From Pseudomonas sp. GM78 (GTDB lineage: Bacteria > Pseudomonadota > Gammaproteobacteria > Pseudomonadales > Pseudomonadaceae), in contig NZ_AKJF01000147.1 in NCBI RefSeq assembly GCF_000282475.1, positions 1 through 54,866 of the forward strand: 54,866 nucleotides of DNA. The letters are read 5' to 3'. The position numbers were made by a program, and so were the translations under genes. A model generated the notes under the pieces. That model worked only from the letters and a program-made list of their open reading frames with translations, ran no database searches and was not told where the DNA came from. Positions within the stretch are counted from its first letter, which is position 1; each line of letters begins with the position of its first letter. This document shows, piece after piece, positions 29,408 to 54,607 of this stretch.

Positions 29408-29438
29408 GGTTGTTCCTTGTGCGTTGAAGGAGGGCGTC

Positions 29439-31933: not shown

Positions 31934-31992
31934 TCCCGGGTTTTGGATGTCGAGGTTTGCTTGAAAAAGCTGTTGCTGGCTAAAAATAAAAT

Positions 31993-32004: not shown

Positions 32005-32087
32005 CGATCCGTCGAGGGATCACCTCTCGCAAACGTCCTCAAAGCAATAACAAAAAGCCTCCACGACGAGGCCAGGATGACGATGAA

Positions 32088-33239: not shown

Positions 33240-33278
33240 AGCCGCTTGCAGCGCATCCCCACAATAAAAGGTGATCTG

Positions 33279-34451: not shown

Positions 34452-34574
34452 CTGAAGACTCTGCAATGCCGTTCTGAAGACAGTGTTTCACCGACGGGGC
34501 AGTTCGGTCGGCGGGATTCTGCATGCTCGAAAAAACTAAAACCAACAATAAAAACAGTTTCGGGAACACCAGGA

Positions 34575-35855: not shown

Positions 35856-35938
35856 CTCATCAAGCGGATACAACGAATAAAGATGTGAATAAAACCCGTT
35901 GAATCAGGGCCTTACTTTGTCTGTGATTTTAATGGTGC

Positions 35939-35950
35939 ATCATATATCTA
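35939..35950 (+). promoter_or_regulatory. Operator D upstream of the aldehyde dehydrogenase-ABC unit
   Basis: ATCATATATCTA is a close variant of the cluster palindrome, differing from operator B only in the last base. It lies 45 bases before the aldehyde dehydrogenase start, in the 139-base gap after oprB, where a promoter for the downstream unit is expected. Confidence 0.6.
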
Positions 35951-35994
35951 GATCGGGCGCCTACGCCTGAAACAACAACAGGAGACGCAACAGC

Positions 35995-37500: not shown

Positions 37501-37517
37501 GTCGTTAACGAGACACC

Positions 37518-37538
37518 GGTGCTGTGCACAACAGCACC
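37518..37538 (+). repeat. Hairpin between aldehyde dehydrogenase and binding-protein genes
   Basis: GGTGCTGT and ACAGCACC form an 8-bp stem with a 5-base loop in the 79-base intercistronic gap. It is followed by no T-run, so processing or mRNA stabilisation is more likely than termination. Confidence 0.5.
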
Positions 37539-37579
37539 CGCATCACCGATCAAAATCAGCGCACTGGAGAATAATAATC

Positions 37580-38821
37580 ATGAAGCTGTCTGCTGTTCGT
37601 TCGATCACCACGTTCGCCTTGGCGAGCCTTATCGGCACCCACGCCTGGGCGGCGCCCAAGCATGAAATCTACACCTTGATGCCAAACACGGCGCTGTCGG
37701 GGGTGATTGACCCCGACATGCCGGATCGCACTGCAATCAACAAAGCCTTGCCACTGAAAAAGAAGGGTGAGCGTCTGCGCATCGGCTGGACCGAAATCAC
37801 CCTTGGCAATCCCTGGTTTGTCTCGATGATCGACGACTCGAAAACCATCGCGAAAAAGTACAACTACGACATTGAACTGCAGGTGGCCGACAGTGATGTC
37901 GCCAAGCAGAGCGCCCAGGTCGACAACTTCATTACCCTGGGTGTCGACCTGATCGTGATCGACCCGACCGATGTGCAAGGTTCGGTATCGGATGTCGAGC
38001 GCGCGGTAGCGGCGGGGATTCCGGTGATCACCGTCGGAACCGCCCCGGACGCCCGGGCGCCGGTGATCACCACAAGCACCGGTAACCCGTATGGCAGTGG
38101 TTTCGAGGCCGGGCGTCATGTTGCGGCCAAGACCGATCCGGCCAAGGTGATCAATGCAGCGATGGTCATTGGCGTGATGGGCAATTCCACCTCCGAAAGC
38201 CGTCTCAATGGCATGATTTCCGGGATCGTCTATGCCCGTTCCCAGGAGCGGAAATTGGGGTTGTCGAAAGAGGACGCGATGCTCAAGGGCTTCAGACTGT
38301 TCCAGCAGGTCAAGGCCAAGGGCAGCTTCAGCTGGCCGGAAGGCGGTTTCAACGTGCTTGCCTGGGGGCGTGGTGACTGGACCGAAGAGGGTGGCCTGGC
38401 GGCCACGGAAGACATCCTCTCGTCTCAAGGTGACAAGCTCAATCTGGTCTTGGCCGAGAACGACTTCATCGCCATTGGCGCAATCAATGCCCTTGAAAAT
38501 GCCGGCAAGAAAAACAGCGTGACGGTCGCCTCCGCTGCCGGCAGCTTTCGGGTGGCGCTGGACTTGATCAAGCAAGGAAAATTGCTGGTGACTGCCACCA
38601 ACAGCGGTTCACAAACCGGTGTGGCCGCCATCGAGTTGATCCACCAGATGCTCGAAAAAGGACTGGATGCCAACAACCTGCCGCTGGCTTCCTATTTCCC
38701 GGTCACGTTGATCACGCCCGATAACGTCGATATCTACATCAAGGCCGACAGCTTGCCGCCATCCACCGACACCGTCCCGCCGTTCCGCTCCATCGAGCAG
38801 ATCAAAACCGCGATGAAATGA
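37580..38821 (+). CDS. Sugar ABC transporter periplasmic binding protein (cluster A)
   Basis: 413 residues, longer than the about 320 typical of RbsB. The signal peptide ends THAWAAPK (cleavage near residue 24). The mature protein has the type I sugar-binding fold: LRIGWTEITLGNPWFVSMIDD, then DLIVIDPTD and GIPVITVGT in lobe 1, and NSTSESRLNGM in lobe 2. The ATG is at 37580. It delivers a sugar or polyol to the permease encoded by 40411-41466. A strong hairpin follows it, which may keep its mRNA more abundant than that of the ATPase. Confidence 0.9.
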   Translation: MKLSAVRSITTFALASLIGTHAWAAPKHEIYTLMPNTALSGVIDPDMPDRTAINKALPLKKKGERLRIGWTEITLGNPWFVSMIDDSKTIAKKYNYDIELQVADSDVAKQSAQVDNFITLGVDLIVIDPTDVQGSVSDVERAVAAGIPVITVGTAPDARAPVITTSTGNPYGSGFEAGRHVAAKTDPAKVINAAMVIGVMGNSTSESRLNGMISGIVYARSQERKLGLSKEDAMLKGFRLFQQVKAKGSFSWPEGGFNVLAWGRGDWTEEGGLAATEDILSSQGDKLNLVLAENDFIAIGAINALENAGKKNSVTVASAAGSFRVALDLIKQGKLLVTATNSGSQTGVAAIELIHQMLEKGLDANNLPLASYFPVTLITPDNVDIYIKADSLPPSTDTVPPFRSIEQIKTAMK

Positions 38822-38838
38822 TTTCGCGGAACTGAATC

Positions 38839-38875
38839 GAGCTGTGGCCGCTGTGTAGAACTGCAGCCACAGCTC
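38839..38875 (+). repeat. Hairpin between binding-protein and ATPase genes
   Basis: GAGCTGTGGC (38839-38848) pairs with GCCACAGCTC (38866-38875) in the 85-base gap. Stem-loops after the binding-protein gene are common in ABC operons and raise its mRNA relative to the downstream genes. Confidence 0.6.
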
Positions 38876-38906
38876 GTAGGGCGGCTGTCTATAGAGGGTG
38901 AGCACA

Positions 38907-40418
38907 ATGAATGCGATGCAAAAACCAGCCGTAGAGATGCTCGACATCTCGAAGAAGTTCGGGGGCATCAGTGCCCTGAACAACGCGAGTTTTTCCGCCC
39001 GTGCGGGGGAAATCCACGCCCTGATGGGCGAGAACGGTGCCGGCAAATCAACCTTGATGAAGGTCCTTTCCGGGGCCTACGTGCGCGATGCCGGCAGCGT
39101 CAGTCTTGACGGCGAGACCGTCGATATCCGCAAACCGGGTGATGCCCTCAATCTGGGTATTTCCATCATTTACCAGGAGTTTGCCCTGGCCCCGCATCTG
39201 TCCGTGGCCGAGAACATCTGCATCGATGACCTGGGCAAGAGCAAGGGCTTCGTACAGTGGGCGGCCATGCGCAAGAAAGCCCGGGCGATTCTCGACGAAC
39301 TGGGTTTCAGCGACATCGACGTTCGCCAACCGGTCGGCAGTTTGTCGGTGGCGCACCAACAAGCCGTGGAGATCTGCAAGGCGCTGTCGCGTAATTCCAG
39401 GGTGCTGGTGTTCGACGAACCCACGGCGGTGCTGACCTCCCATGAGGCGCAAAAGCTGTTCAGGATTCTCGATGAGTTGCGGCGCAAGGGTGCGTGCATT
39501 GTCTACGTCTCCCACCGCATGGACGAAATATTTCGTATCTGTGACCGCGTCACTGTGCTCAAGGATGGCCACACCGTTGGCACGCTGGGCCTGGCCGACA
39601 TCACCGAGCGTGGTTTGATCGAGATGATGATCGGTCGCGAACTGAGCGACCTGTTCCCTTCGCGCAAATCGCAGATTGGCGAGGTGTTACTGAAGGTCGA
39701 GAACCTGTGTGCCGGGCGCCTGGTGCGTGATGTGAGTTTCCAGGTGCGGGCCGGTGAAGTCCTGGGTTTTTGTGGGCTGGTCGGGGCCGGGCGGACCGAA
39801 ACCATGCGTGCGATCTTCGGCGTCGATCGCAAGACCTCCGGCACCCTGCACCTCGAGGGACGGGAGATCCACAACCGCTCGCCACGGGAAGCCATTGCCA
39901 ATGGCATCGGTCTGCTGCCAGAGGATCGTAAGCAACAGGGGGTGCTGCTGGAAATGTCGATCAGGGTCAACGGCGCGCTACGCCCCGACAGCCCCTATAC
40001 CGGGCCCATGGGCTGGATTGCCAGTGGCCGGGAAACCCAGGGTATCGAAGCCCTGCGCAAGCAACTGGCAGTCAAGACACACTCGATCGAGCAACTGGTC
40101 GGCGACCTGTCGGGTGGCAATCAGCAGAAAGTCGCCCTGATGAAATGGGTCGATGCCGGCTGCCGGGTGCTGATCCTCGATGAGCCTACCCGTGGTGTCG
40201 ACGTGGGGGCGAAAACCGAAATCTACCGGGTCATCAACGATCTCGCTGCACAGGGTGTGGCGATCATCATGGTTTCTTCGGAAATGATTGAAATCATCGG
40301 TATGTGTGACCGCGTGCTGGTGATGCGCGAAGGCGCGATTGCCGGCGAACTGTCGGGCGAGCGCATTAATGAACAAACAATGATTTGCCTGGCAATGGGA
40401 GTCCAGCACCATGAGTAA
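38907..40418 (+). CDS. Sugar ABC transporter ATPase (cluster A)
   Basis: 503 residues with two ATP-binding cassettes, as in RbsA/XylG. Cassette 1 has GENGAGKST, signature LSVAHQQ and Walker B VLVFDEPTA. Cassette 2 has the degenerate loop GLVGAGRTE, signature LSGGNQQ and LILDEPTRGVDVG. The start is ATG 38907 (AGAGGG upstream); GTG 38898 adds three residues. The stop overlaps the permease start by 8 bases. It powers the cluster A sugar importer. Confidence 0.93.
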   Translation: MNAMQKPAVEMLDISKKFGGISALNNASFSARAGEIHALMGENGAGKSTLMKVLSGAYVRDAGSVSLDGETVDIRKPGDALNLGISIIYQEFALAPHLSVAENICIDDLGKSKGFVQWAAMRKKARAILDELGFSDIDVRQPVGSLSVAHQQAVEICKALSRNSRVLVFDEPTAVLTSHEAQKLFRILDELRRKGACIVYVSHRMDEIFRICDRVTVLKDGHTVGTLGLADITERGLIEMMIGRELSDLFPSRKSQIGEVLLKVENLCAGRLVRDVSFQVRAGEVLGFCGLVGAGRTETMRAIFGVDRKTSGTLHLEGREIHNRSPREAIANGIGLLPEDRKQQGVLLEMSIRVNGALRPDSPYTGPMGWIASGRETQGIEALRKQLAVKTHSIEQLVGDLSGGNQQKVALMKWVDAGCRVLILDEPTRGVDVGAKTEIYRVINDLAAQGVAIIMVSSEMIEIIGMCDRVLVMREGAIAGELSGERINEQTMICLAMGVQHHE

Positions 40419-41466
40419 CCCAAATTCCAAGCTGGCCACGGCCGAGCTTATGCAGCAAAGCAGTCGCGCCCAGGGAGACCGGCCCCGTCAACGCTCGTTG
40501 CAACGTCTTTTTCTGCAGCACAATGCGCTGGTCATGCTGGTGGTGCTGGCCATCGTCGCCAGCGTGCTTTCGGCGGACTTTCTTACCTACCAGAACCTGG
40601 GCAACCTGTTACGCCAACTGACGCCGTTGCTGCTGGTGAGCATCGGCATGTTGATTGTGATCCTGACGGCGGGTATCGATTTGTCCGTGGCGTCGGTGGC
40701 AGCCGTGGGGGGTATTGTGGTCGCCATGACCCTCAATGTGCTGCCGGTCGACGGCAGTGCCGGGTTGTTGCTGGCAGCGGCGATTGCGGTGGCGGCCGGC
40801 GTGTTGATGGGGCTGGTGACCGGCACCTTTATCGCGTACTTCCGCATGGCACCGTTTATCGCGACCCTGGCCATGATGACGGTGGCCCGTGGCTTGGCGT
40901 TCATCCTGTCCAACGGCCAACCACAACGGCTGGACGACACGCTTGTCAGCGCCCAATTGCTGCGTGATTTCGGACGACTGGCCGATGGCGTGCTAGGCAT
41001 CCCTTGGCCTGTGTGGCTGGCGGCGGGGGTGACGCTCGTGTTTGCCTTGATCCTGCGCTACAACGCTTATGGCCGCCTGACCATTGCCAGTGGCAGCAAT
41101 GAAACGGCGGTGCGCCTGGCGGGCATAGCGGTTGAGCGTTACAAACTGGCGGCCTACGGCATTTGTGGTGGACTTGCAGCATTGGCCGGAGTGGTGATCG
41201 CATCGCGCTCAGGTGTCGCCACGCCCAGCGCCGGCTTGGCACTGGAGCTTGATGCGATTGCCGCGTGTGTGATCGGCGGCGCCTTGTTGTCGGGTGGCAA
41301 GGGTACGATTTTCTACACGGTGGTAGGTGTGCTGGTATTGGGCCTGATCGGCAACATCATGAACCTGCTGAGTGTGCCGGCCTATCCGCAACAGATCATC
41401 AAAGGCGCAATTATTGTCGTGGCTGTGCTTTTGCAAGGTGTCGGTCGACGGGACGCGCGTATTTGA
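40411..41466 (+). CDS. Sugar ABC transporter permease, RbsC type (cluster A)
   Basis: 351 residues with about 9-10 helices. Family segments are GMLIVILTAGIDLSVASVAAV, MAPFIATLAMMTVARGLAFI and the C-terminal IGGALLSGGKGTIFYTVVG, which touches the ATPase. It starts within the ATPase stop (ATGAGTAA). A homodimer should form the channel for the substrate caught by the 413-residue binding protein. The regulator gene follows 127 bases later behind its own operator. Confidence 0.93.
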   Translation: MSNPNSKLATAELMQQSSRAQGDRPRQRSLQRLFLQHNALVMLVVLAIVASVLSADFLTYQNLGNLLRQLTPLLLVSIGMLIVILTAGIDLSVASVAAVGGIVVAMTLNVLPVDGSAGLLLAAAIAVAAGVLMGLVTGTFIAYFRMAPFIATLAMMTVARGLAFILSNGQPQRLDDTLVSAQLLRDFGRLADGVLGIPWPVWLAAGVTLVFALILRYNAYGRLTIASGSNETAVRLAGIAVERYKLAAYGICGGLAALAGVVIASRSGVATPSAGLALELDAIAACVIGGALLSGGKGTIFYTVVGVLVLGLIGNIMNLLSVPAYPQQIIKGAIIVVAVLLQGVGRRDARI

Positions 41467-41500
41467 TTGGACCGCTGGACGGAGTGGCAGGCGTCATCTG

Positions 41501-41512
41501 ATGATGTATGAT
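41501..41512 (+). promoter_or_regulatory. Operator E upstream of the cluster regulator
   Basis: ATGATGTATGAT differs from the cluster palindrome at two positions. It lies 82-93 bases before the regulator's likely GTG start, suggesting autoregulation. It is the weakest of the five matches. Confidence 0.45.
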
Positions 41513-41593
41513 GCGTTATCGGCAATTGATGTCGGCAGATTCACAAGTCTGCCACTCCGGCGCAGAGTAATCGACTATGGAGATCGAGCAATA

Positions 41594-42274
41594 GTGACCG
41601 TGCATAAGCCCATTGATAAAGGCAACTTGAGCGAACGGGTGTATTCAATTATTCGCACCGCGTTGATGGACGGGCAGTACCAGCCAGGCGATCGTCTGCG
41701 TATCAGTACACTGGCCGAAGAGTTCGGCGTATCGATCACCCCGGTGCGCGAGGCGATCTTCCGCCTGGTCAGTGACCACGCGTTGGACATGAAAGCTGCA
41801 ACCTCGATTTATGTCCCGGAGCTGACGGTCAGTCAACTGCGGGAAATCCAGTTGATCCGTCATTTGCTCGAAGGCGAAGCGGCCGGCATGGCCGCTCAGC
41901 GGATCACCAAGCCGGAGCTGGAGAAACTCGAAGCCATCCAGGAGGCATTCCAGAAGGCGGTTCCCGTCGACTACAAGCAAGCTGCCTTGTTGAACAGAGA
42001 GTTCCACTTCGGTTTGATCTCCGCGGCGCGCATGCCCGTGGTGTCTAAAACCCTTGAAAACATGTGGGTCATCATGGGGCCGCTGCTGAGCCGGTTCCAC
42101 GCGGAGGTGCCCAAGCGGGAGCTGGCCAGCGCCAAGCACAAGCATTTCGAAGTGCTGGAAGGCTTACGCACCCGCGACTCGGACAAAGCCAAGCACGCAA
42201 TGCAGGCGGACATCGCGTGGGGTGAGTTAATGATCGAATGGCTGGAAAAAAAGGAAAACCTGGCCGAGGCGTAA
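41594..42274 (+). CDS. GntR/FCD-family regulator, likely controller of cluster A
   Basis: About 226 residues. The helix-turn-helix is in DRLRISTLAEEFGVSITPVRE, followed by an FCD ligand domain (LIRHLLEGEAAGMAA, LNREFHFGLI with His, KHKHFEVLEGL). The start is uncertain: GTG 41594 is chosen; upstream ATGs from 41501 would add about 31 residues that do not look like the family. It is the only regulator within 24-42 kb, and the ATGATATATCAT palindromes sit before all units there, so it is the best candidate for the protein that binds them. Confidence 0.87.
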   Translation: MTVHKPIDKGNLSERVYSIIRTALMDGQYQPGDRLRISTLAEEFGVSITPVREAIFRLVSDHALDMKAATSIYVPELTVSQLREIQLIRHLLEGEAAGMAAQRITKPELEKLEAIQEAFQKAVPVDYKQAALLNREFHFGLISAARMPVVSKTLENMWVIMGPLLSRFHAEVPKRELASAKHKHFEVLEGLRTRDSDKAKHAMQADIAWGELMIEWLEKKENLAEA

Positions 42275-43644: not shown

Positions 43645-45198
43645 GTGCAAAACCCTCATCGTTTCATTTGCGAGCGCCAACCCTTGAAGAGTCGAGCATT
43701 ACTGGTTGGGGTGGACATGGGCACCTCCAGTACCCGTGTCGTGGTCGTTGACCAGGATGGCTGTCAGCGGGGGGCGGCGAGTCGGTCCGCGCGCTTGGCG
43801 AATCCGGCGCGACAGGTGTTCGAGCAGTGTCCGGACGAGATGTATGCGTCGGTGTTGCTGGCCATCGCCGATGTCATGGCTCAGGCATCGATCAATGCCG
43901 GCGACATCGCTGGTATCGCGATCTGCGGGCAAATGGCCGGGATCTCGACCATCGGCCGCCACTGGGAAGCCACAACGCCCTACGATTCCTGGCTCGATAT
44001 GCGTTGCGCCCACCAGGTGCAGCGGCTCAAGGCTTTCGAGCCATCGATCATTCAACAGGCGGGCGGCCCGGTCAGTGCCAACCATGCCGCGAAATGGCTG
44101 TACTGGCGTGACGAACAGCCCCGGGTCTATCGCAAGATCCGCAAGATCATCATGCCGGCGGCCTACGTCGCAGGGCGCATGGCGGCGCTGGATGCCGATG
44201 CGGCGTTCATGGATGACACCTACCTTGGCTTCAACAGTTTTGCCGACAACCAGGCGATGCAATGGAACACGGCGCTGCTCGATGAATTCCAGCTGGAGGT
44301 CGATCGACTCCCCAGGCTGGTGAAACCCTGGGATCGCATCGGCTCGGTGTGCGCAAAGGCGGCGCGCGATTGCGGGCTGTTGGCCGGCACGCCGGTGTTT
44401 GCCGGGTGCGCGGATATCGCTGCGTCCCTGCTCGGTACCGGATCATTTGAACCTGGGCAACTGTTCGACATTGCCGGTACTGGCTCGGTGCTGGCGACCG
44501 TGCTTGACCATTACGCGGTGGACGCGCAGCACCAGACCCTGACGACGTTCCGCCACTGCATCCCCGGGTTATTTTATTCGATGGCCTACGTCGGTGGGGC
44601 CGGCATCACGCTCAAGGCATTCGGCCTGACGGACGCCGAGTGCCAGCAACTGCAAGCGCGGGCCGGGGCTGCGTTGTCCGAGCGCGACAAGCTGCTGTTC
44701 ATGCCCCACCTCGGGGGGCGCCATGCGCCGTTCGATGCCGCGCTGGCCGGCGCGTTTGTCGGCCTCGACTGGCGCCACGACCGCACCGACCAGTACCGCG
44801 CGATGCTGGAGTCGATCGCCTATGAATACGTGCGTTTTGCGCAATGCATGCGGGACATGCAGGTCGATTTCGGCGACGCAGGGGTGATCAGTCTGGGCGG
44901 GGGGGCGAACAGTCCGCTGTTCCGGCAGATCAAGGCTGATGTGCTGGGGTTGCCTTATCGCAAACTGCCCGGCGCCGAGTACGGTGTGCTGGGCGCTGCG
45001 CTAGTGGCGGGACAGGGTGCGGGGGTGTTTGCCGATCTCAAGCAGACAGCCATTGACTGGCAACGACCGGACGAATGCGTGACGTTGCCGGACGCGTCCC
45101 GGCAGGCGTTCTATGCCGGTATGCGCAAGGCGTACGAGCAGATGCTGAGCAAACTCAGGCCGGTGATGGCCGATCTGCAGGCGGTGCCGTTGGCATGA
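43645..45198 (+). CDS. FGGY-family carbohydrate kinase, xylulokinase-like
   Basis: 517 residues with two actin-like ATPase domains. The N-terminal phosphate loop is LLVGVDMGTSSTRVVVVDQDG; WLDMR holds a substrate-binding Asp, GCADIAASLLGTG the catalytic Asp, and the C-terminal signature is LGGGANSPLFRQIKADVLGLP. FGGY kinases phosphorylate ketoses or polyols. The start is unclear: GTG 43645 or TTG 43684 (13 residues shorter), neither with a strong ribosome site. Its 3' end overlaps the convergent LysR gene by 44 bases. It is the only sugar kinase near either transketolase pair. Confidence 0.88.
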   Translation: MQNPHRFICERQPLKSRALLVGVDMGTSSTRVVVVDQDGCQRGAASRSARLANPARQVFEQCPDEMYASVLLAIADVMAQASINAGDIAGIAICGQMAGISTIGRHWEATTPYDSWLDMRCAHQVQRLKAFEPSIIQQAGGPVSANHAAKWLYWRDEQPRVYRKIRKIIMPAAYVAGRMAALDADAAFMDDTYLGFNSFADNQAMQWNTALLDEFQLEVDRLPRLVKPWDRIGSVCAKAARDCGLLAGTPVFAGCADIAASLLGTGSFEPGQLFDIAGTGSVLATVLDHYAVDAQHQTLTTFRHCIPGLFYSMAYVGGAGITLKAFGLTDAECQQLQARAGAALSERDKLLFMPHLGGRHAPFDAALAGAFVGLDWRHDRTDQYRAMLESIAYEYVRFAQCMRDMQVDFGDAGVISLGGGANSPLFRQIKADVLGLPYRKLPGAEYGVLGAALVAGQGAGVFADLKQTAIDWQRPDECVTLPDASRQAFYAGMRKAYEQMLSKLRPVMADLQAVPLA

Positions 45199-46147
45199 GG
45201 GTCATGGCATGCTGTGTTCGAATCGGCGCACAGGCGAGGTGCCGGGCCGGCATGTCCAGATTCTTGAAGTACTGAACGGCAAAATCAACGAAGGATTTGA
45301 CCCGCGCCGGCAGCTTCTTCCCGCCTTCGGTGAGCACATGGAACCCGGTGGTCGCACATTGATAGTCCTCGAGCAGCGGCACCAGTCGTTGCGCCTGAAT
45401 GTCATCGGCCACTTCCCAGACTGACTTCCAGATAATCCCCAGGCCCTGTACCGCCCACTGGCGCAGGGTAAAGCCGTCGTTGGCCAGCCGATTCCCCTTG
45501 ACCTGGATCGTGCTCGACAGGCCGTTGTGCATGAACTTCCAGCGATCGAGCGCGAAGTCGGCACGCAGTTGCACCAGGCAGTTGTGCTGATGCAGGTCCT
45601 CGGGCACCAGGGGTTTCGGGTGCCGCTGCAGATACTCAGGCGAACAGCAGACCATCGGCCGGTCGACGCCCAGGGAGCGGGCAATCAATGAGCTGTCCGG
45701 AAGATCGCCGAAACGGATCGCGATGTCCGAACCCGATTCGACGAAGTCGAGAATCCGGTCGGTGAAAAACAGGCGGATGCTGACGTGGGGATTTTCGCCA
45801 ATGAAGGCATCGACCAGTTGGCTGACCCATTGCCGGCCGAGGTCGGTAGGGCAGGTCAGGCCGATGGTCCCGAGCAAGTCGCTGTGGCCATTCTTGATGA
45901 TGTTGTCGAGGGCATCGACCTCTTCGAGGATTTTCAGCGCGTTTTCAAACAGCAACTGGCCTTCGGCAGTCGGGCTCAGGCTGCGGGTGTTGCGCTTGAG
46001 CAAGCGCAAGCCATAGAACTCCTCCATCGCCTTGAGGCGACCGCTCATGGCCGCCGGCGACAGACCCATTTGCCGGCCGGCCGTGGAAAGGGAGCCTGTC
46101 TGCACCACCAGGCGAAACAGCCGCATGTCCTGTAATCGATCAACCAT
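45155..46147 (-). CDS. LysR-family transcriptional regulator (cluster B)
   Basis: 330 residues. The helix-turn-helix is QTGSLSTAGRQMGLSPAAMSGRL, followed by the LysR ligand domain and an extra basic/Pro-rich tail of about 30 residues (to PADRPSPA) beyond the usual end. The tail is encoded by DNA that also codes for the end of the FGGY kinase on the other strand. It diverges from the flavin-reductase/ABC/transketolase operon across a 287-base AT-rich gap and is its probable activator (inference). Confidence 0.9.
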   Translation of the reverse strand: MVDRLQDMRLFRLVVQTGSLSTAGRQMGLSPAAMSGRLKAMEEFYGLRLLKRNTRSLSPTAEGQLLFENALKILEEVDALDNIIKNGHSDLLGTIGLTCPTDLGRQWVSQLVDAFIGENPHVSIRLFFTDRILDFVESGSDIAIRFGDLPDSSLIARSLGVDRPMVCCSPEYLQRHPKPLVPEDLHQHNCLVQLRADFALDRWKFMHNGLSSTIQVKGNRLANDGFTLRQWAVQGLGIIWKSVWEVADDIQAQRLVPLLEDYQCATTGFHVLTEGGKKLPARVKSFVDFAVQYFKNLDMPARHLACAPIRTQHAMTLMPTAPPADRPSPA

Positions 46148-46434
46148 GATGTTTCAACTCGCCAGGCTTGTTTTCTGATTGTTCGGAAAGTATCGATCGA
46201 TTATTCACCTGATTCAATTAATTAAATATCCAAGGGTTCTTTCCAGTAACTAACAAACTGCTCTGGAATGGGTGTTCCAGGCGATATGTGAACTTGATTC
46301 AAATGAGTTTGTTGTTGGCTTCACCTTACGGGAAACTTGAAAAGTCAATTTTTCAAAAGTGAATAGAAAAGTAGAGGGGATTGTTAATAATGAATGCCTG
46401 AGCTTGTGAGTCACCCAAAAAAGAGGGTTTAAGT
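46148..46434. promoter_or_regulatory. Divergent promoter region of LysR and the cluster B operon
   Basis: 287 bases with no supported gene, clearly richer in A+T than the flanks (for example 46195-46235 and 46320-46390). This is where LysR-dependent promoters for both directions are expected. Several TTCA/TGAA half-sites are present, but no single LysR box could be chosen by eye. Confidence 0.5.
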
Positions 46435-46950
46435 ATGCACGTTCAATATCAAGTGGCCGCCCCTTCGATCGACCTGGCCGGCCCATTCAAAATGGCAATG
46501 GGGCGTTTCGCCTCTTCCATAACCCTGATCACTACACTCGACGATGACGGCCAGCCCCATGGTCTGGCGGCCACCGCTTTTTCCTCGGTGTCGATGGACC
46601 CGGCCTCGGCCCTGATCTGCATCAATCGCAGCGCCAGCGCCTCGCCGATCATCAAGCGCTCCGGGCTGTTCTGCGTGAACATGCTGCAAAGCCAGCACGA
46701 ACCGATCTGCAAGATCTTCAGCCAGCCCGACCTGCGCGAACGCCGCTTCGTCGTGGGCGACTGGCGCACCGGGGAGCACGGCATTCGTTACCTGGCCGAT
46801 GCCCAGGCGGCCATCTTCTGTGAAGTTGTTCAGGAGATTGAACACGGTACCCACACCGTGATGATCGGCAACGTGATTGATGTCATTACCCAGCCTTTCG
46901 AGGAGCCGCTGCTGTACATGGGAGGGCGATACCGGCAACTGGGTGATTAA
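46435..46950 (+). CDS. Flavin reductase (FMN-binding split-barrel family)
   Basis: 171 residues. The family core is visible: MAMGRFASSITLITT, then DGQPHGLAATAFSSVSMDPASALICINRSAS and FCVNMLQ. Such proteins use NAD(P)H to supply reduced FMN or FAD to a partner oxygenase. The same operon encodes a luciferase-like monooxygenase (51560-52663), the natural partner, making a two-component system (inference from content). It is the first gene after the LysR-controlled gap; GAGGG precedes the ATG. Confidence 0.9.
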   Translation: MHVQYQVAAPSIDLAGPFKMAMGRFASSITLITTLDDDGQPHGLAATAFSSVSMDPASALICINRSASASPIIKRSGLFCVNMLQSQHEPICKIFSQPDLRERRFVVGDWRTGEHGIRYLADAQAAIFCEVVQEIEHGTHTVMIGNVIDVITQPFEEPLLYMGGRYRQLGD

Positions 46951-47007
46951 TCGGCAAGTCGTGCAGTGCTCGGTCTTATAACAATTAAATAAGAAGTGGA
47001 TGTGGGT

Positions 47008-47994
47008 ATGAACAATCAGTTGTTGGTCAAGTCAAGACTCGCCGGATCGATTCCAAAGTGGATCGGCCTGGAAACTAACGTGGCCGGCCCGATGGTCGGG
47101 CTTTTGTTGTTGTGTGCGGTACTTACCGTCTTTACCGATAGTTTCCTGACCTTGAGCAACCTGCTCAATGTGCTCGATCAAGTGACCGTGCTGGGCATCA
47201 TGGCGCTGGGCATGACCCTGGTGATTCTCATCGGTGGCATCGACCTGTCTGTCGGCGCGGTGCTGGCCGTGGCGATCATGGTCATGAGCTGGCTCGAGCA
47301 GGTGCTGGGGTTACCGATGTGGGTGGCCATGCTCGGGGCCCTGGCCGTCGGTGCGGCCTGCGGGTCGACCACGGCCTTGCTGGTGGTCAGGGCCGGCCTG
47401 CCGTCGTTCATTGCGACCCTGGCGATGATGTCCATCGCTCGCGGCCTGGCCTACATGGTCACCGACGGCGCGCAAGTCAGCGGCTTCCCGGAATGGTTCA
47501 GCAACCTCTCGGTGATTCGTTACGGCGGTGTGTTGTCGCTGACCGTGAGCTGCTTTGCCGTGTTGGCGCTGGTGTTCTGGTTCGTCCTCAAGTTCACGGT
47601 GGCCGGGCGCAGCCTGTACGCCATCGGCGGCAGCGCCAAGGTGGCCAAGCTCGCGGGTATCCGGGTCAAGGGCTACACCAGTGCGGTGTACATCATTTCC
47701 GGAATTTGCGCGGCCCTGGGCGGCGTCATCATGACCTCGCGGCTGGACACCGCCGGAGCCGGCGCGGGCGTCGGCTATGAGCTGGACGTGATCGCCGCGG
47801 TGGTGATCGGCGGCGGCAGCCTCAAGGGCGGGGCGGGCAGTGTGGTCGGCACCCTCATCGGCGTGCTGATCATCGGTGTGTTGCGCAATGGCCTGAACCT
47901 GGCCGGCATTTCGCCCTTCATCCAGCAAGTGGTGATTGGCGCCGTGATCGCCTTCGCCGTGATGCTCGATCTGCTCAAGCGCAAGGCCGACTGA
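47008..47994 (+). CDS. Sugar ABC transporter permease, RbsC type (cluster B)
   Basis: 328 residues with about 9-10 helices. GMTLVILIGGIDLSVGAVLAVA and GLPSFIATLAMMSIARGLAYM are conserved family segments, and VVIGGGSLKGGAGSVVGTLIG forms the ATPase-coupling region. ATG 47008 is preferred; GTG 46996 adds four residues. Operon order here is permease, binding protein, ATPase, unlike cluster A, so this is not a recent copy of that transporter. Confidence 0.92.
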   Translation: MNNQLLVKSRLAGSIPKWIGLETNVAGPMVGLLLLCAVLTVFTDSFLTLSNLLNVLDQVTVLGIMALGMTLVILIGGIDLSVGAVLAVAIMVMSWLEQVLGLPMWVAMLGALAVGAACGSTTALLVVRAGLPSFIATLAMMSIARGLAYMVTDGAQVSGFPEWFSNLSVIRYGGVLSLTVSCFAVLALVFWFVLKFTVAGRSLYAIGGSAKVAKLAGIRVKGYTSAVYIISGICAALGGVIMTSRLDTAGAGAGVGYELDVIAAVVIGGGSLKGGAGSVVGTLIGVLIIGVLRNGLNLAGISPFIQQVVIGAVIAFAVMLDLLKRKAD

Positions 47995-48054
47995 CCCCAG
48001 GCCCTCGAACAAAAAAAGCCCTCGTGCCCAATCCAGAACAACAAGGATAAAAAC

Positions 48055-49005
48055 ATGAAACTGCCTGCTTTTTCAGTGCGTGTGCTGTGGTTGCCGCTGC
48101 TCGGCTGCCTGATGTCGTGCGGTGTGAACGCACAGACCAAACCCGTGGATCAGATCACTGTCGGGATGTCGATCCCGAGCCTGCAATGGGTGTTCTACCT
48201 GATGGTCCGCGATGGCGTGATGGAACAGGCCAAGGGCCTGGGGATCAACAATGTGCTGGTCGCTGACGCCCAAGCCGATCCGGCGCGGCAGGTCAGCCAG
48301 ATCCAGGACATGTTGAGCAAAGGCATCGATGTGCTGCTCTACACCGCCACCGGCAGCGCTGCTTCGGCCGTACCGGTGCGACTGGCGCGGCAGCAGGGGG
48401 TGCCGGTGATCTGCATCGACAACTTCCCGAAAAACGTCGAGTGCGATGCCTATATCTCCACCGACAACCTGGCGGCGGCGGGCGAGCTGGCCCGGCAAAT
48501 GATCAAGCTGACCGGTGGCAAGGCCGAGATCGGCCTGCTCCAGGGCACCTTGGGCGACTCGACCGAAGTGGCCCGGGCCAAAGGCCTGGACGCGGTGTTG
48601 TCCGAGGCGCCGGAGATGAAAATCGTCGACCGCAAGCCGACCGACTGGCTGCAGGACAACGGCTTCAAGGTGGCCCAGGACATGCTGCAGAAAAACCCGA
48701 AAATCAACGTGTTCATTGGTCGGTCCGATGCGCCGGCACTGGGTGCCGCCCAGGCGGTCAAGGTCGCCAACATCGATCACAAGGTCTGGGTCTTCGGTTA
48801 TGACGGCCTGCCCTCGGCCCTGGAAGCCATGCGCGACGGCAAGCTGGACATGACCATCACCCAACAAGCCGTGGAAATGGGGCGTACGGCGTTGCGCACC
48901 GCGGTCGACCTGCAGCAAGGCAAGCCGGTGACCAAGACTCAACTGCTGCCGGCCTTCGTCACCACCCGCGAAAACGTGGCGACCTTTCTTGAGCAGCACC
49001 CTTGA
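48055..49005 (+). CDS. Sugar ABC transporter periplasmic binding protein (cluster B)
   Basis: 316 residues, RbsB-like type I sugar-binding fold. The signal region LPLLGCLMSCGVNAQ can be read as a lipoprotein signal (Cys near residue 18 or 22) or a cleaved signal peptide ending VNA. Lobe 1 has ITVGMSIPSLQWVFYLMVRDG, DVLLYTATG and VPVICIDN; lobe 2 has GTLGDSTEVARAKG. It is almost 100 residues shorter than the cluster A binding protein, suggesting a different substrate or at least a different lineage. Confidence 0.9.
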   Translation: MKLPAFSVRVLWLPLLGCLMSCGVNAQTKPVDQITVGMSIPSLQWVFYLMVRDGVMEQAKGLGINNVLVADAQADPARQVSQIQDMLSKGIDVLLYTATGSAASAVPVRLARQQGVPVICIDNFPKNVECDAYISTDNLAAAGELARQMIKLTGGKAEIGLLQGTLGDSTEVARAKGLDAVLSEAPEMKIVDRKPTDWLQDNGFKVAQDMLQKNPKINVFIGRSDAPALGAAQAVKVANIDHKVWVFGYDGLPSALEAMRDGKLDMTITQQAVEMGRTALRTAVDLQQGKPVTKTQLLPAFVTTRENVATFLEQHP

Positions 49006-49028
49006 GACCGGCGAAGGAGGGTAACGTC

Positions 49029-50528
49029 ATGAATGCGATCCAGACCGGGCAGGCACCGCTGTTTCGGGCCAGCAACATCGGCAAGTCATTCAATTCGGTC
49101 AGGGTGCTGGAAGACATCAGCCTGGATATCGGCTACGGCGAAGTGGTGGCGTTGCTGGGGGAGAACGGTGCGGGCAAGTCGACCTTTTCCTCCATCGTCG
49201 CCGGCGCCTTGACGCCGTCCAAAGGCACGATGTTCCTCGCAGGCGAACCCTACGCGCCGAACGGACCCGGGGCGGCCATGGCCCTGGGCATCAACATGAT
49301 CCATCAGGAGATTCATCTGCTACCGGACTTGAGCGTGGCGGAAAATGTGTTCCTCGGTCACCTGCCCACCCGTGACGGCATGATCGACCGCAACGCCATG
49401 CACCGCGAAACCGAGAAACAACTGCGGCGCCTGGGCCTGGACATTTCCCCGCAAACCCCGGTGCGGCAACTGAAGATCGCCGCCCAGCAACTGGTGGAAA
49501 TCGCCCGAGCCCTGACGCTCAACTCGCGCTTGCTGATCCTCGACGAGCCGACGGCTGCCTTGGGCAAGGACGAAACCGACCTGCTGTTCAAACAGATCGA
49601 GGAGCTGAAAAAGGAGGGCGTGTCCTTCATCTACATCAGCCACCGCATGGATGAAATTGCGCGGATCGCCGACAAGGTCGTGGTGATGCGCGACGGGCAT
49701 CTGATCGCCCGTCACGACAGCGGCTCGGCGGATGTCAGCGTGCTGGTGTCGCAGATGGTGGGGCGGCCGATCGAGCGCTTGTTCCCGGAATTGCCGCTGC
49801 CCGGTGATACGGAGGTGCTGCGCGTCGAGCAACTGTCGGACAAGGCCGGACGCTTTCACGATGTGTCGTTTTCGGTCAAGGCCGGGGAAATCTTCGGGAT
49901 TGCCGGCATTGTCGGCGCCGGTCGCACCGAGCTGGTCCAGGCGATTGCAGGGTTGAGTGCGCTGAGCCAGGGCAAGGTGATGCTGGGTGATCGGCCGCTG
50001 CCGGCCAACAATGTGCAGGCGGCGATCCACGCCGGTGTGGTGTTGATACCCGAAGACCGCAAATCCGAAGGCGTGGTGCTCAGCCAGACCATTGCCGAGA
50101 ACCTGACCTACTGCAACCTGGACAGCCTGAGTTCCTGCGGGATCATGGCCAACCAGCGGGTCGCCGCTTTTGCCCGTGAGCGTATAGCGACACTGGGGAT
50201 CAAGGGCGTGGCGGGGCAGATGCTCGACAAGTTGTCCGGTGGCAATCAGCAGAAAGTGGTGATCGCCAAATGGATCGCCCGCCATCCGAAAGTGATCATT
50301 CTCGACGAACCGACCCGGGGCATCGACATGGGCGCCCGCGCGGCGATCTATGAACTGATCATTGACCTGGCGAAAACCGGGGTCTCGGTGATCGTCGTCA
50401 GCTCCGATCTGGAAGAAGTCATCGGTCTCTCCCATCGCGTCATGGTCATGGCCCGCGGCTGCTCCCAGGGCATCCTGCATCGGCCGCAGATTGCCCCCGA
50501 CAGCATCATGACCCTGGCGACCGCGTGA
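49029..50528 (+). CDS. Sugar ABC transporter ATPase (cluster B)
   Basis: 499 residues with two cassettes. Cassette 1 has GENGAGKST, the weak signature LKIAAQQ and LLILDEPTAALG. Cassette 2 has GIVGAGRTE, LSGGNQQ and IILDEPTRGIDMG. ATG 49029 follows GGAGGG, 23 bases after the binding-protein stop; the reading from 49002 adds nine residues. It energises the cluster B importer. Confidence 0.93.
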   Translation: MNAIQTGQAPLFRASNIGKSFNSVRVLEDISLDIGYGEVVALLGENGAGKSTFSSIVAGALTPSKGTMFLAGEPYAPNGPGAAMALGINMIHQEIHLLPDLSVAENVFLGHLPTRDGMIDRNAMHRETEKQLRRLGLDISPQTPVRQLKIAAQQLVEIARALTLNSRLLILDEPTAALGKDETDLLFKQIEELKKEGVSFIYISHRMDEIARIADKVVVMRDGHLIARHDSGSADVSVLVSQMVGRPIERLFPELPLPGDTEVLRVEQLSDKAGRFHDVSFSVKAGEIFGIAGIVGAGRTELVQAIAGLSALSQGKVMLGDRPLPANNVQAAIHAGVVLIPEDRKSEGVVLSQTIAENLTYCNLDSLSSCGIMANQRVAAFARERIATLGIKGVAGQMLDKLSGGNQQKVVIAKWIARHPKVIILDEPTRGIDMGARAAIYELIIDLAKTGVSVIVVSSDLEEVIGLSHRVMVMARGCSQGILHRPQIAPDSIMTLATA

Positions 50529-50557
50529 TGACCGACAGCCAACGAGGAGGTTGCAGT

Positions 50558-51355
50558 ATGTCCACTCAGTATCAGGCACGGCCTTACCGACCGTTCGCGC
50601 AATTGCTGGACTTGTCCGGCAAAACCGCTGTCGTCACTGGCGGCGGCAGCGGCATCGGCCTGGCTATCAGCCGGCGCCTGGCCGAAGCGGGTGCCAAGGT
50701 ATTGATTGGCAGCCTGGCGCCGGAGCGCAGCGGTGAACTGGTCGAGGCCGGGTTTGCCGTTGAGTTTGTGCGCACCGATGTCAGTCAGCCCGCCGATATC
50801 CAGCGCCTGGCGGACATGGCCGTCGAGCGCTTCGGCCGCCTGGATATCTGGATCAATAACGCGGGCGTCTATCCGCTCAAGCCCATCGACGAGGTCGATG
50901 CGGATTTCTGGGACAGGCTGCACGCCATCAACACGCGTGGGGTGTTTCTCGGTGCGCAGGCGGCACAGCGGCAGATGCGCCGTCAGCAAAGCGCCGGGGC
51001 GATCATCAATCTGTCGTCGATCTGTGGCCACCGGTCCATGGCCAATCACTGTACCTACGACGCTTCGAAGGGCGCGGTACTGGCCATGACCCGCAGCCTG
51101 GCCAAGGATTTGAGCGCCTTCGGCATTCGGGTCAACTCGATCTCGCCGGGGCTGACGGCGACCCCGGGCAACCTGGAGCCGGAACTGCTGGAGCAGCACC
51201 GGCAGAACAACGTGCTGGACAACATCCCCCTGGGCCGGGCAGCAGAGCCCTGGGAAATTGCCGATGCCGTGCTGTACCTGGTTTCGCCATTGTCCTCCTA
51301 CGTGACGGGCACTGACTTGCTGGTGGATGGCGGGTGGCTGCTGCATGGAAGTTGA
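50558..51355 (+). CDS. Short-chain dehydrogenase/reductase (cluster B)
   Basis: 265 residues, classical SDR with a 25-residue N-terminal lead before the core. It has TGGGSGIGLAISRRL, NNAGVYPL, Ser in INLSSICGH, and Tyr/Lys in YDASKGA, and ends TGTDLLVDGGWLLHG. ATG 50558 has AGGAGG 7 bases before; an upstream ATG at 50528 overlaps the ATPase stop. Sited in a sugar importer/transketolase operon, it likely oxidises a polyol to a ketose or reduces a keto intermediate. Not closely related to the cluster A SDR. Confidence 0.88.
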   Translation: MSTQYQARPYRPFAQLLDLSGKTAVVTGGGSGIGLAISRRLAEAGAKVLIGSLAPERSGELVEAGFAVEFVRTDVSQPADIQRLADMAVERFGRLDIWINNAGVYPLKPIDEVDADFWDRLHAINTRGVFLGAQAAQRQMRRQQSAGAIINLSSICGHRSMANHCTYDASKGAVLAMTRSLAKDLSAFGIRVNSISPGLTATPGNLEPELLEQHRQNNVLDNIPLGRAAEPWEIADAVLYLVSPLSSYVTGTDLLVDGGWLLHGS

Positions 51356-51499
51356 CGCGTAACTGAACCCACCGAGGGCCGATGGCGTGCGTTGAAGCAA
51401 CGCTCGGTCAGCCCCGGATATTGAACCCCTTTGCTTGAACGTTGCGACTCGCAGCGCCGGCACTGGCACGCCTGCGAAACGAGCGCTCGTCATGAAAAC

Positions 51500-51532
51500 G
51501 CTGTGTTGCAGCAACTCTGTTCGCAACACAGC
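51500..51532 (+). repeat. Inverted repeat before the monooxygenase gene
   Basis: GCTGTGTTGC and GCAACACAGC are perfect complements around a 13-base spacer, 27 bases before the luciferase-like gene, in the largest gap (204 bases) of the operon. It could be an operator or an mRNA hairpin. There is no T-run after it, and the ribosome site (CAGGAG) follows closely. Confidence 0.55.
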
Positions 51533-51559
51533 GGTCACTGAAAACAGCAGGAGAACGAC

Positions 51560-52663
51560 ATGAAACTCGCCATGTTCATGCAGCCGCTTCACCACAAGGG
51601 CTGGGATTATCACGAGATGTACGACCAGGACATTGCCTGCGCCGTCCACGCCGACAGCGTCGGTTTCGATGAACTGTGGGTGGGTGAACATACCTCTCAG
51701 CGCACCGAGCCGATCACCAACGCGCTGCAATTTCTGTCCACCCTGATTCCGCTGACCCGGCGCATGAAGTTGTGCACCGGTGTACTCAATCTGCCCCATC
51801 ATTTCCCGGCGCGTATCGCTGCCGATGCGGCGATGTTCGATCACATGTCCAAGGGGCGTTTCATCATGGGCATCGGCCCGGGCGGGCTGGCCTCCGACTT
51901 CGAGGTGTACGGCAGCAACGGCAAGGACCGCGGGCAGATGATGGTCGAGTGCTACGAGATGATCCGGGCGATCTGGAACTCGGGCGCACCTTATGAGTTT
52001 TCGACCGAACACTATCAGGTCAGCCTCAAGGACTCGGTCCATCACGAACTGCAGATCGGCTACATGCCGACCCCGTTCCAGAAACCGTTCCCGCGCGTCG
52101 CGACCACGGCCATGAGTCCGTTCTCCGGTACCGCCAAACTGGCTGGCGCCAGGGACTGGGACTTGATGTCCGCCAACTTCAACCCGACGGCGACCGTGGC
52201 CTCGCATTGGCAGGCTTACTGCCAGGGCGCAGAAAGTGCCGGAATCAAGGCTGACGCCAACAACTGGCGGGTGGCCCGTTCGGTGTTCGTCGCCGACTCC
52301 CAGGCCCAGGCCGAGGACTATCTGGCCATGGAGAGCTGCACCCTGCGGCGCTACTTCGACTACATGATCGATAACCTGGCCAGCAACCACTACACCAAGA
52401 TCTTCAAGACCCGCCCCGACATGACCGACGAGGAAGTGACGGTCGATCACTGCATCAAGGAAATGGTGATCTACGGCGACGTGAATTCGGTCACCGAGCA
52501 ACTGGTCGCGTTCAGCGAACAGACCGGGCCGTTCGGCACCTTGATGACCACCTTCCATGAGTGGGACGACGCAGCGCTGTGGCGACGCTCCATGGAGCTG
52601 ACCGCGCAGCAGGTCATGCCACGCCTCAATGACTACATGACGCCACGCTTGAAAGCGCAGTGA
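51560..52663 (+). CDS. Luciferase-like (LLM class) flavin-dependent monooxygenase
   Basis: 367 residues, bacterial-luciferase superfamily barrel. MKLAMFMQPLHHKGWDYHEM, GFDELWVGEHTSQ near residue 35, PHHFPARIAADAAMFDHMSKGRFIMGIGPGG near 75-105 and a C-terminal HEWDD segment resemble LimB/LuxA-like oxygenases. It probably uses reduced FMN made by the flavin reductase of the same operon. The combination with a sugar ABC importer and transketolase is unusual. A sugar-linked ether, aldehyde or sulfonate substrate is possible, but nothing in the sequence fixes it. Confidence 0.88.
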   Translation: MKLAMFMQPLHHKGWDYHEMYDQDIACAVHADSVGFDELWVGEHTSQRTEPITNALQFLSTLIPLTRRMKLCTGVLNLPHHFPARIAADAAMFDHMSKGRFIMGIGPGGLASDFEVYGSNGKDRGQMMVECYEMIRAIWNSGAPYEFSTEHYQVSLKDSVHHELQIGYMPTPFQKPFPRVATTAMSPFSGTAKLAGARDWDLMSANFNPTATVASHWQAYCQGAESAGIKADANNWRVARSVFVADSQAQAEDYLAMESCTLRRYFDYMIDNLASNHYTKIFKTRPDMTDEEVTVDHCIKEMVIYGDVNSVTEQLVAFSEQTGPFGTLMTTFHEWDDAALWRRSMELTAQQVMPRLNDYMTPRLKAQ

Positions 52664-52732
52664 TCGCCTGCGCTGGGCCCGGCCACATCGCGGATGTGGC
52701 CGAAACTCTGGTAATGCCCCTGGACACGACAC

Positions 52733-53623
52733 ATGACTGATTTGACGACGCAACACTTGCGCGAAAATGCACAGCGCGACTTTCAATTGACCGCCGAGGA
52801 GCTGGCCCGGTTGCGGGAAAAAGCCCAGTTCATTCGCCTGGAAACCATTCGCCTGATCGAAATCGCCAAGGTCGGCCACTACACCTCGGTGTTCTCCGCC
52901 GCCGAGCTGTTCGCCGCCCTGTATTACGACGTGATGGACCTGCGGTTCGGCGAGCCGAAATGGGCCGATCGCGACCGTTTCATGATGGGCAAGGGGCATG
53001 CGGCGGTCGGCCTGTTTCCGGTGCTGGTGGAGTGGGGGTTCTTCGAGAAAGAGATCCTCGACAACTACACGCGCCTGGGCAACCCGCTGGGCGATCACCC
53101 GGACATGCGCAAGGTCCCGGGGGTGGATTTTTCTTCCGGCTCCATCGGCCATGCCTTGTCCGGCGGGCTGGGCATGGCCCTGGCCGGGCGGATGCTGGGC
53201 AAGTCGTTCACCACTTACGTGATGCTCGGCGACGGCGAAATGCAGGAAGGCCAGGTGTGGGAGGCGGCGCTGGGCGCGGCTCACCACAAGGTCCACAACC
53301 TGGTGGCGATCATCGACCGCAATGGCTATCAGCTCGACGGCAACGTGGATGACGTGATCGGCATCGAGCCACTGGCGGACAAGTGGATCGCCTTCGGCTG
53401 GGAAACCCATGTGGTCGATGGCCATGACCTGGCGGCGGTGACCAGCCTGCTGCGTCGTCTCAAGGCCGACACCACGCGCACGCAACCGGTGTGCGTCATC
53501 GCCAATACGGTCAAGGGCAAAGGGGTTTCCTACATGGAAACCGAGCCGGGATGGCACCTGGGTTATCTCGACCCGCAAGACGCACAACGCGCTATCGACG
53601 AAATCAAAAGCAAGGTGATCTAA
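52733..53623 (+). CDS. Transketolase, N-terminal subunit (cluster B)
   Basis: 296 residues, the thiamine-diphosphate domain. The GDGEMQEGQVWEAA motif and the Asn in DRNGYQLDG match the cluster A copy (26496-27383) closely, as do GHYTSVFSAAELF, MGKGHAAVG and FSSGSIGHALSGGLGM. The N-terminal 30 residues differ. It is followed after 3 bases by the C-terminal subunit. The 69-base gap before it shows no terminator, so it belongs with the monooxygenase gene. Confidence 0.92.
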   Translation: MTDLTTQHLRENAQRDFQLTAEELARLREKAQFIRLETIRLIEIAKVGHYTSVFSAAELFAALYYDVMDLRFGEPKWADRDRFMMGKGHAAVGLFPVLVEWGFFEKEILDNYTRLGNPLGDHPDMRKVPGVDFSSGSIGHALSGGLGMALAGRMLGKSFTTYVMLGDGEMQEGQVWEAALGAAHHKVHNLVAIIDRNGYQLDGNVDDVIGIEPLADKWIAFGWETHVVDGHDLAAVTSLLRRLKADTTRTQPVCVIANTVKGKGVSYMETEPGWHLGYLDPQDAQRAIDEIKSKVI

Positions 53624-53626
53624 GCC

Positions 53627-54607
53627 ATGAATACCGCACCTCTGTCGAACAACTCCTGGCAGTACCGGGCACTGAACAGCCAGACCCCCAGCTTGAATGC
53701 CTTGTCCGATGCGCTGATCGAACTGGTCGAGCGCGGCGAGCCGGTGGTCGCCGGCACCGCTGACCTGCAGTACTCCAACGGTTTGTCGAAATTCGCCGAG
53801 CAGCATCCCGAGCGATTCGTGCAGTTTGGCATTTCCGAACAGAACATGGTGTCCGCCGCAGCCGGGATGGCAGCGGTGGGCATGAAACCGTTCGTGGCGA
53901 CCTTTGCATCTTTCCTGCCGTTGCTGTGCTGCGAGCAGATCCGCATGGACGTGGCCTACTCGGCACTGCCAGTGCGCCTGATTGGCCACCACGCCGGCAT
54001 CTCCCTGGGCTTCTACGGCACCTCGCACCACGCCACCGAAGACCTGGCGATCATGCGCTCGATCGCCGACATCACGGTGGTTGCACCGGCCGATGGCAAT
54101 CAGCTCAAGGCGGCGATCCTGGCTTCGGCCAACTACCCGCAACCGATCTATTTCCGCATTCAGCGCGGGCGGGATCCGGTGGTCTATGACAGCGTCCCGG
54201 ATTTTGTCTTCGGCAAGGCCACGGTGCACCTGACGGGCGATGAACTGACCATCATTGCCACCGGTTCCACGGTACATCCGGCCCTCGAAGCCGCGCGGGC
54301 CTTGAATGCCGCCGGACGTTCGGTGGGCGTGATCGACATGACCACCATCAAGCCGCTGGACCGCGAGGCGGTGCTGACCGCTGCGCGCAACAGCCGGGCG
54401 ATTCTCACTGTGGAGGAGCACAACATCATCGGCGGATTGGGCGGGGCCGTGTGTGAAGTCATCGCGGAGGAGGGCATTGGTGTCAAAGTGCGGCGCCATG
54501 GTCTTTACGATGAGTACAGCCTGATTGCGCCGCCGACCCACCTGTATCGGCATTACCGGCTGGATGCGGTGGGGATCGAAAGCGTGGCGCTGGAGGTGTT
54601 GGGTTAA
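53627..54607 (+). CDS. Transketolase, C-terminal subunit (cluster B)
   Basis: 326 residues, the same length as its cluster A paralogue. It shares ISEQNMV with the activating Glu, ASFLPLLCCEQIRMDVAYSALPVRLIGHH and GFYGTSHHATEDLA. With the N-terminal subunit it forms an alpha/beta-split transketolase. It is the last gene of the cluster B operon and is followed by a strong terminator at 54658-54706. The FGGY kinase nearby could supply a phosphorylated ketose to it. Confidence 0.92.
   Translation: MNTAPLSNNSWQYRALNSQTPSLNALSDALIELVERGEPVVAGTADLQYSNGLSKFAEQHPERFVQFGISEQNMVSAAAGMAAVGMKPFVATFASFLPLLCCEQIRMDVAYSALPVRLIGHHAGISLGFYGTSHHATEDLAIMRSIADITVVAPADGNQLKAAILASANYPQPIYFRIQRGRDPVVYDSVPDFVFGKATVHLTGDELTIIATGSTVHPALEAARALNAAGRSVGVIDMTTIKPLDREAVLTAARNSRAILTVEEHNIIGGLGGAVCEVIAEEGIGVKVRRHGLYDEYSLIAPPTHLYRHYRLDAVGIESVALEVLG

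Follow-up and report, generated by a model that had tools for sequence, protein, structure and literature searches.

A conserved Pseudomonas gene block joining a luciferase-like monooxygenase to a sugar importer and a split transketolase

We analyzed a 54,866-nucleotide stretch of the Pseudomonas sp. GM78 genome (7.3 Mb), consisting of contig NZ_AKJF01000147.1 (C147; hereafter the window), and in particular a block of nine genes and 9.5 kb close to its end, which we term cluster B. The block combines a LysR-type regulator, a flavin reductase, a ribose-type (CUT2) ATP-binding cassette (ABC) importer, a short-chain dehydrogenase/reductase (SDR), a luciferase-like monooxygenase (LLM) and a two-gene transketolase, and its order is conserved in seven genomes. 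We propose, at a probability of a little over one in three, that the genes of cluster B make up an operon for the catabolism of a small sugar or polyol, perhaps one of lower polarity. Its route would resemble apiose-type transketolase catabolism in modified form, extended by a Baeyer-Villiger-like monooxygenase that acts on a ketone. To our knowledge, the transketolase sugar routes described so far (apiose, sulfo-TK) need no oxygen, and diketocamphane enzymes, to which the LLM is related, serve terpene breakdown. A conserved operon joining both predicts either that a sugar-derived ketone is opened in an oxygen-dependent manner, or that an importer clade otherwise seen with apiose-type enzymes has a new substrate. 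The binding protein offers a direct handle on the substrate of cluster B, and one binding assay would suffice to open the function to testing.

Gene content and conservation

The genes of cluster B are all intact open reading frames (ORFs) with Pfam matches above the cut-off (Table 1), and the order given by a first-pass annotation of the window, with a flavin reductase, importer, SDR, LLM and split transketolase next to a LysR gene, was confirmed. Intergenic spacing runs from 4-bp overlaps up to 69 bp, with a single 204-bp gap between the SDR and the LLM. From this spacing we infer that cluster B forms an operon.

The regulator, flavin reductase, importer, LLM and transketolase keep their order in 7 of 7 genomes, the window's own included; because of this shared order, we consider the gene set to be more than a chance association. 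The LysR gene is present in all seven (in G542 it spans loci L179 into L198), as is the flavin reductase gene, which is first in the block, and the SDR is present in six. Genes in unannotated loci were called by ORF picking. The seven genomes derive from two sets, one based on the LLM and one on the transketolase, with two genomes in common. A scan of a species-level genome collection with the LLM gave 596 stretches and 576 relatives, and among the best 80 of these the close LLMs were from P. izuensis (97%), P. gingeri (93%, apparently G044) and P. entomophila WZ006 (83%), with the next at 53%. The transketolase pair accompanies the LLM in all three. A close LLM was found in two of 144 related genomes, the window's own and G044 (93%), and 398 phylum genomes yielded no further LLM above 42% among matches at E 1e-60. 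In the opposite direction, a search of 298 genus genomes with the C-terminal transketolase subunit identified five with identities of at least 92% (G000, G583, G542, G609 and G044). Compared with P. gingeri, the changes in five genes are mostly silent codons, with 91 silent and 24 non-silent in the LLM.

The first-pass annotation had connected a two-component flavin monooxygenase with the uptake of a sugar and with a split transketolase, and held that a lack of conserved linkage would speak against the idea. The linkage is kept among close orthologs, since the transketolase is found in 4/4 genomes with a close LLM and the LLM in 5/5 genus genomes with a close transketolase, and it is narrow. 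Within the best 80 relatives, the other 77 LLM loci are more distant (identities up to 53%) and none has a transketolase match, although the absence is weak for the 22 of these that span less than 13 kb. No match was found either at 12 plasmid loci or at 7 genome loci whose LLMs are 31-46% identical.

The monooxygenase, transketolase and importer

Among solved structures, the LLM is most closely related to 3,6-diketocamphane monooxygenase (3,6-DKCMO), both in sequence and in fold. The fold matched this enzyme above other LLM classes, with a far worse fit to SsuD and MsuD. Residues H44 and E50 of the LLM align with diketocamphane His46 and Glu52, which are reported to be the two active-site residues that both diketocamphane enzymes have in common (PMC4631483). 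H44 and E50 are both present in 80/80 LLM homologs. For a residue control we used 37 loci, comprising 5 of the close family, 30 controls and 2 without an alignment over both positions. E50 occurs in 3/30 control LLMs and H44 in 30/30, and therefore only E50 discriminates. These comparisons place the LLM as kin to the diketocamphane (type II Baeyer-Villiger) class, and it may thus catalyze a Baeyer-Villiger reaction. It shares 25% identity with the 3,6-diketocamphane 1,6-monooxygenase of the P. putida CAM plasmid, and lies in a sugar operon rather than a terpene pathway. The flavin reductase is matched by the RutF, HsaB, StyB and HpaC models, all below cut-off, and accompanies the LLM in all seven genomes, which makes this a two-component system at the gene level.

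More distant LLM relatives (39%) were observed on Phaeobacter and Agrobacterium plasmids (L046 11407-19897 and L047 2782-19330). They lie beside a riboflavin kinase gene and two flavin reductase genes, with ribB in one locus and ribA plus lumazine synthase in the other, as if the supply of flavin mononucleotide (FMN) were part of the pathway.

The two adjacent transketolase genes divide the enzyme into a thiamine diphosphate (ThDP)-binding subunit and a pyrimidine/C-terminal subunit, as in known split-chain transketolases. Their best PDB matches are the N chain of the Carboxydothermus split transketolase 6yak and 6yaj from the same system, respectively. The catalytic residues H26, H66, H100, D155, E411 and H473 (E. 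coli TktA numbering) are kept across both subunits, and we take their roles to be those in TktA. Two TktA phosphate-site residues, R358 and D469, are replaced by Ser and Tyr; the E. coli apiose transketolase AptAB, which presumably acts on a phosphorylated ketose, lacks all four phosphate-site residues, so that the replacements in cluster B do not by themselves point to an unphosphorylated substrate. In a tree of 39 sequences (matches spanning fewer than 250 query residues were dropped, and one sequence contains one unknown letter), the enzyme grouped with a second split transketolase of the window (25513-27383, 73% identical). The nearest non-Pseudomonas enzyme among those compared, from Ensifer adhaerens, branches as the sister of the cluster B clade (support 0.97), and is encoded near a CUT2 importer as well as an SDR that shares 52% identity with SDRa from the E. 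coli apiose cluster.

The window's second transketolase belongs to a separate locus (24073-42274) with its own CUT2 importer, a GntR gene, two glycerol-dehydrogenase-like genes, a shikimate-dehydrogenase-like gene, a GMC oxidoreductase, an OprB porin and an aldehyde dehydrogenase. This locus is mirrored in part on a Paraburkholderia terrae plasmid (L143). At five further loci (L140, L141, L144, L145 and L147), transketolases of the same clade occur with aminotransferases, SDRs and ABC importers, and in some with an amidase or a succinate-semialdehyde dehydrogenase. These aminotransferase-linked loci perhaps encode a transketolase route, not yet described, that handles an amino compound.

The E. 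coli SE15 D-apiose cluster (ECSF_RS02670-02715) contains aplK, aptA, aptB, two SDR genes and a CUT2 importer. Strains carrying this cluster are reported to grow on D-apiose, and the two oxidoreductases are proposed to replace the isomerase (PMC13001218). In 398 genomes of the phylum, the cluster B binding protein has 11 relatives besides itself (E 1e-40), and all 11 lie in clusters that match AplK, AptA, AptB and both SDRs, and 10 of the 11 also match the E. coli SE15 apiose regulator. The permease is 54-61% and the ATPase 52-59% identical to those of the 11 apiose-type clusters, and the range over all three importer components is 37-61%. The SDR is 37% identical to SDRa. At positions equivalent to N13, R90 and N190 of the ribose-binding protein, which we take to be ligand contacts, the cluster B proteins have W, N and S (4/4) and the apiose-type proteins A, R and A (7/7), as tabulated for 4 of 7 and 7 of 11 proteins, respectively. 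Judged from these residues, the cluster B pocket looks less polar. Two apiose-type clusters contain one further gene each, a transaldolase in a Pseudomonas-genus genome (L189 14435-15370) and a triosephosphate isomerase in another proteobacterial genome (L193 12300-13076).

Proposed pathway and alternatives

In the proposed pathway, the substrate would be sensed by the LysR regulator, imported by the CUT2 importer and converted to a ketose by the SDR, probably with a second SDR encoded just past the end of the window. The split transketolase would then move a two-carbon ketol unit from this ketose, itself not phosphorylated, onto an aldose phosphate of central metabolism. Using O2, the flavin reductase and LLM would oxidize a ketone (or aldehyde) that arises in the pathway. 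The target of the LLM is most likely the ketone remaining after cleavage of a branched ketose. Transketolase cleavage of a branched ketose would yield a ketone and so account for a Baeyer-Villiger enzyme among these genes. No hydrolase, aldolase or kinase is among the genes that the seven blocks have in common. On chemical grounds, if oxygen is inserted beside a carbon that bears a hydroxyl, the product should decompose with no need for an esterase. We infer the substrate class, the order of the steps, the absence of a phosphorylation step and the Baeyer-Villiger reaction itself.

A more specific version, which we consider a long shot, is a transketolase pathway that works without a kinase and degrades a methyl-branched polyol, for example 2-C-methyl-D-erythritol or the isoprene-derived 2-methyltetrols. 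The SDR would generate a branched ketose, from which the transketolase would take a two-carbon unit to leave hydroxyacetone, and the Baeyer-Villiger enzyme would open the hydroxyacetone with O2. Since the carbon is branched, the leaving group would be a ketone and not an aldehyde. If true, this sugar pathway would by its own logic need a Baeyer-Villiger monooxygenase. A literature search by titles and abstract openings found no account of methylerythritol breakdown among the papers listed. The ether, sulfonated and methylated sugars suggested in the first-pass annotation fared differently: the methylated one survives as a possible methyl-branched polyol, the ether has no positive evidence, and the sulfonated one is disfavored because the LLM is a far closer fit to the diketocamphane class than to SsuD/MsuD.

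Several observations weigh against the proposed pathway or the breadth of its support. The E. coli SE15 importer, which is the one found in strains that grow on D-apiose, differs from that of cluster B (26-38% identity, 26% for the binding protein), and its binding protein is also only about 25-30% identical to those of the related clusters, except for 45% in L195. Therefore, the link to apiose runs through the enzymes that accompany the importer clade and not through a known apiose carrier. The transketolase is 35-38% identical to E. coli AptA/AptB and is not of the AptAB type, as the C-terminal subunits of the two fall into separate clades (support 1.0), and its own clade includes rhizobial and burkholderial enzymes beside aminotransferase or glycerol-dehydrogenase-like genes. 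No LLM or flavin reductase match was found in the 45 kb around the Ensifer transketolase. The regulator is LysR, not SorC as in the apiose cluster. In G609, there is no SDR between the ATPase and the LLM (L182 11839-12003), although the rest of the block is there. Three of the seven genomes (G542, G583 and G609) were found via the transketolase itself. Finally, G703, marked as the same species, had no such transketolase at the cut-off used; therefore, the block is accessory.

Cluster B shares with the E. coli D-apiose cluster and its relatives in Pseudomonas and other Proteobacteria a CUT2 importer, an SDR and a two-gene transketolase. It differs in that the SorC regulator is absent, the kinase is not core, the transketolase belongs to another clade, and a flavin reductase and LLM are added. 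Thus, cluster B sides with the D-apiose clusters by importer clade but not by transketolase clade or kinase, and is no plain member of this group, although it may work alike. In our view, it is rather unlikely that cluster B is a true route for D-apiose or apiitol in which the oxygenase contributes a side activity. The importer kinship (11/11) and the presence of an SDR and a split transketolase agree with it, but the transketolase clade and binding-site residues differ, and 4 of 7 genomes have no adjacent kinase. G583 has an AptB-like gene (81% identical to the L190 protein) besides cluster B, so that this explanation would need redundancy there. We give somewhat more credence, while still doubting it, to the LLM acting first on the imported compound and removing a non-sugar group (ether, deoxy or other), after which the sugar would pass to the SDR and transketolase. 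This corresponds to the first-pass reading once the sulfonate is dropped. The seemingly less polar binding pocket would suit such a compound, and LLMs as a class also perform dealkylation and C-S cleavage. However, the LLM fits best to a Baeyer-Villiger subfamily that attacks ketones, and the imported compound would need to carry one.

The LLM might also be a luciferase-like aldehyde scavenger that oxidizes short aldehydes, such as glycolaldehyde from transketolase side reactions. We regard this as quite unlikely, since E50 and a 9-unit Z gap favor the diketocamphane class, and an aldehyde dehydrogenase would be cheaper. A sulfosugar pathway, with the LLM as desulfonating enzyme and the transketolase cleaving a sulfoketose, is highly improbable. 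The precedents for it are the two-component LLM of sulfo-ASMO and the transketolase of sulfo-TK (PMC9594981). Cluster B and the Sulfo-ASMO/SMO sulfoquinovose pathway both have a two-component LLM and reductase, an oxidoreductase and an ABC importer, but the cluster B oxygenase is nearer to another LLM branch and a transketolase is present. An SsuD-type identity of the LLM was rejected, as no close homology to SsuD was found and the diketocamphane class fits far better. There is no glycosidase among the proteins scanned. The earlier statement that cluster B is not the sulfoquinovose monooxygenase route was right. The accompanying statement that transketolase lies outside sulfoquinovose breakdown was incomplete, as a separate sulfo-transketolase route exists (PMC9594981). 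The action of a transketolase on an unphosphorylated ketose is published for Sulfo-TK (SqwGH) and would be a shared feature of cluster B; the available part of that source names no oxygenase for Sulfo-TK (PMC9594981), and cluster B has one. A literature search by titles and abstract openings, with most subscription papers outside its coverage, found among the papers listed no description of a sugar cluster combining a transketolase, an LLM and a flavin reductase.

Neighboring genes and a possible intergenic hairpin

Table 1 Positions of the cluster B genes and adjacent features in the window
Feature	Position	Strand	Matches and remarks
FGGY-family sugar kinase	43645-45198	+	Pfam FGGY_N/FGGY_C; below cut-off of every NCBIfam model listed; neighbor, doubtful member
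LysR-type regulator	45155-46147	-	Pfam HTH_1 and LysR_substrate; divergent from operon
Flavin reductase, RutF/HpaC/StyB-like	46435-46950	+	Pfam Flavin_Reduct 1e-39; first gene of block
CUT2 (ribose-type) permease	46996-47994	+	BPD_transp_2
Periplasmic sugar-binding protein, RbsB fold	48055-49005	+	Peripla_BP_4
Sugar ABC ATPase, two ABC domains	49002-50528	+	ABC_tran, 2 stretches
Classical SDR	50525-51355	+	adh_short_C2
Possible RNA hairpin in SDR-LLM gap	51499-51533	+	RNAalifold
FMN-dependent LLM, putative diketocamphane (type II Baeyer-Villiger) subfamily	51560-52663	+	Bac_luciferase
Split transketolase, ThDP-binding subunit	52733-53623	+	Transketolase_N
Split transketolase, pyrimidine and C-terminal subunit	53627-54607	+	Transket_pyr and Transketolase_C

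The FGGY kinase had been counted with the cluster in the first-pass annotation. It does adjoin the block in the window, but its membership is doubtful, as it is adjacent in only 3 of 7 genomes (the window's, G583 with 75% and G609 with 77% identity) and is convergent with the LysR gene, with a 44-bp overlap of the 3' ends. Genome-wide searches gave no kinase match at E 1e-60 in G044 or P. izuensis, and the match in P. entomophila is only 46% identical and on another contig. The kinase is 25% identical to AplK. From this distribution, it appears not to be a core member of the block.

The contig ends 259 bp past the transketolase, ahead of an epimerase/NmrA-like gene and a second SDR gene that follow the block in all six other genomes, the latter 2-3 kb downstream. 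A second LysR gene follows in five of the six. In the window's genome, an epimerase-like gene, a second SDR gene and a LysR gene are found in fitting order at the very end of contig C164, and C147 and C164 probably adjoin. The second SDR may genuinely belong to the pathway; Ensifer adhaerens encodes a 72% identical homolog near its transketolase.

The gap between the SDR and LLM genes contains a possible RNA hairpin. RNAalifold analysis of six orthologous gaps gave seven pairs with two-sided changes, all within this stem. Its sequence differs from genome to genome, yet most of the pairing persists; individual genomes disrupt some of the pairs, and the covariation term, at -1.22, is small. In P. 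entomophila, an unrelated hairpin occupies the same gap position just upstream of the LLM start.

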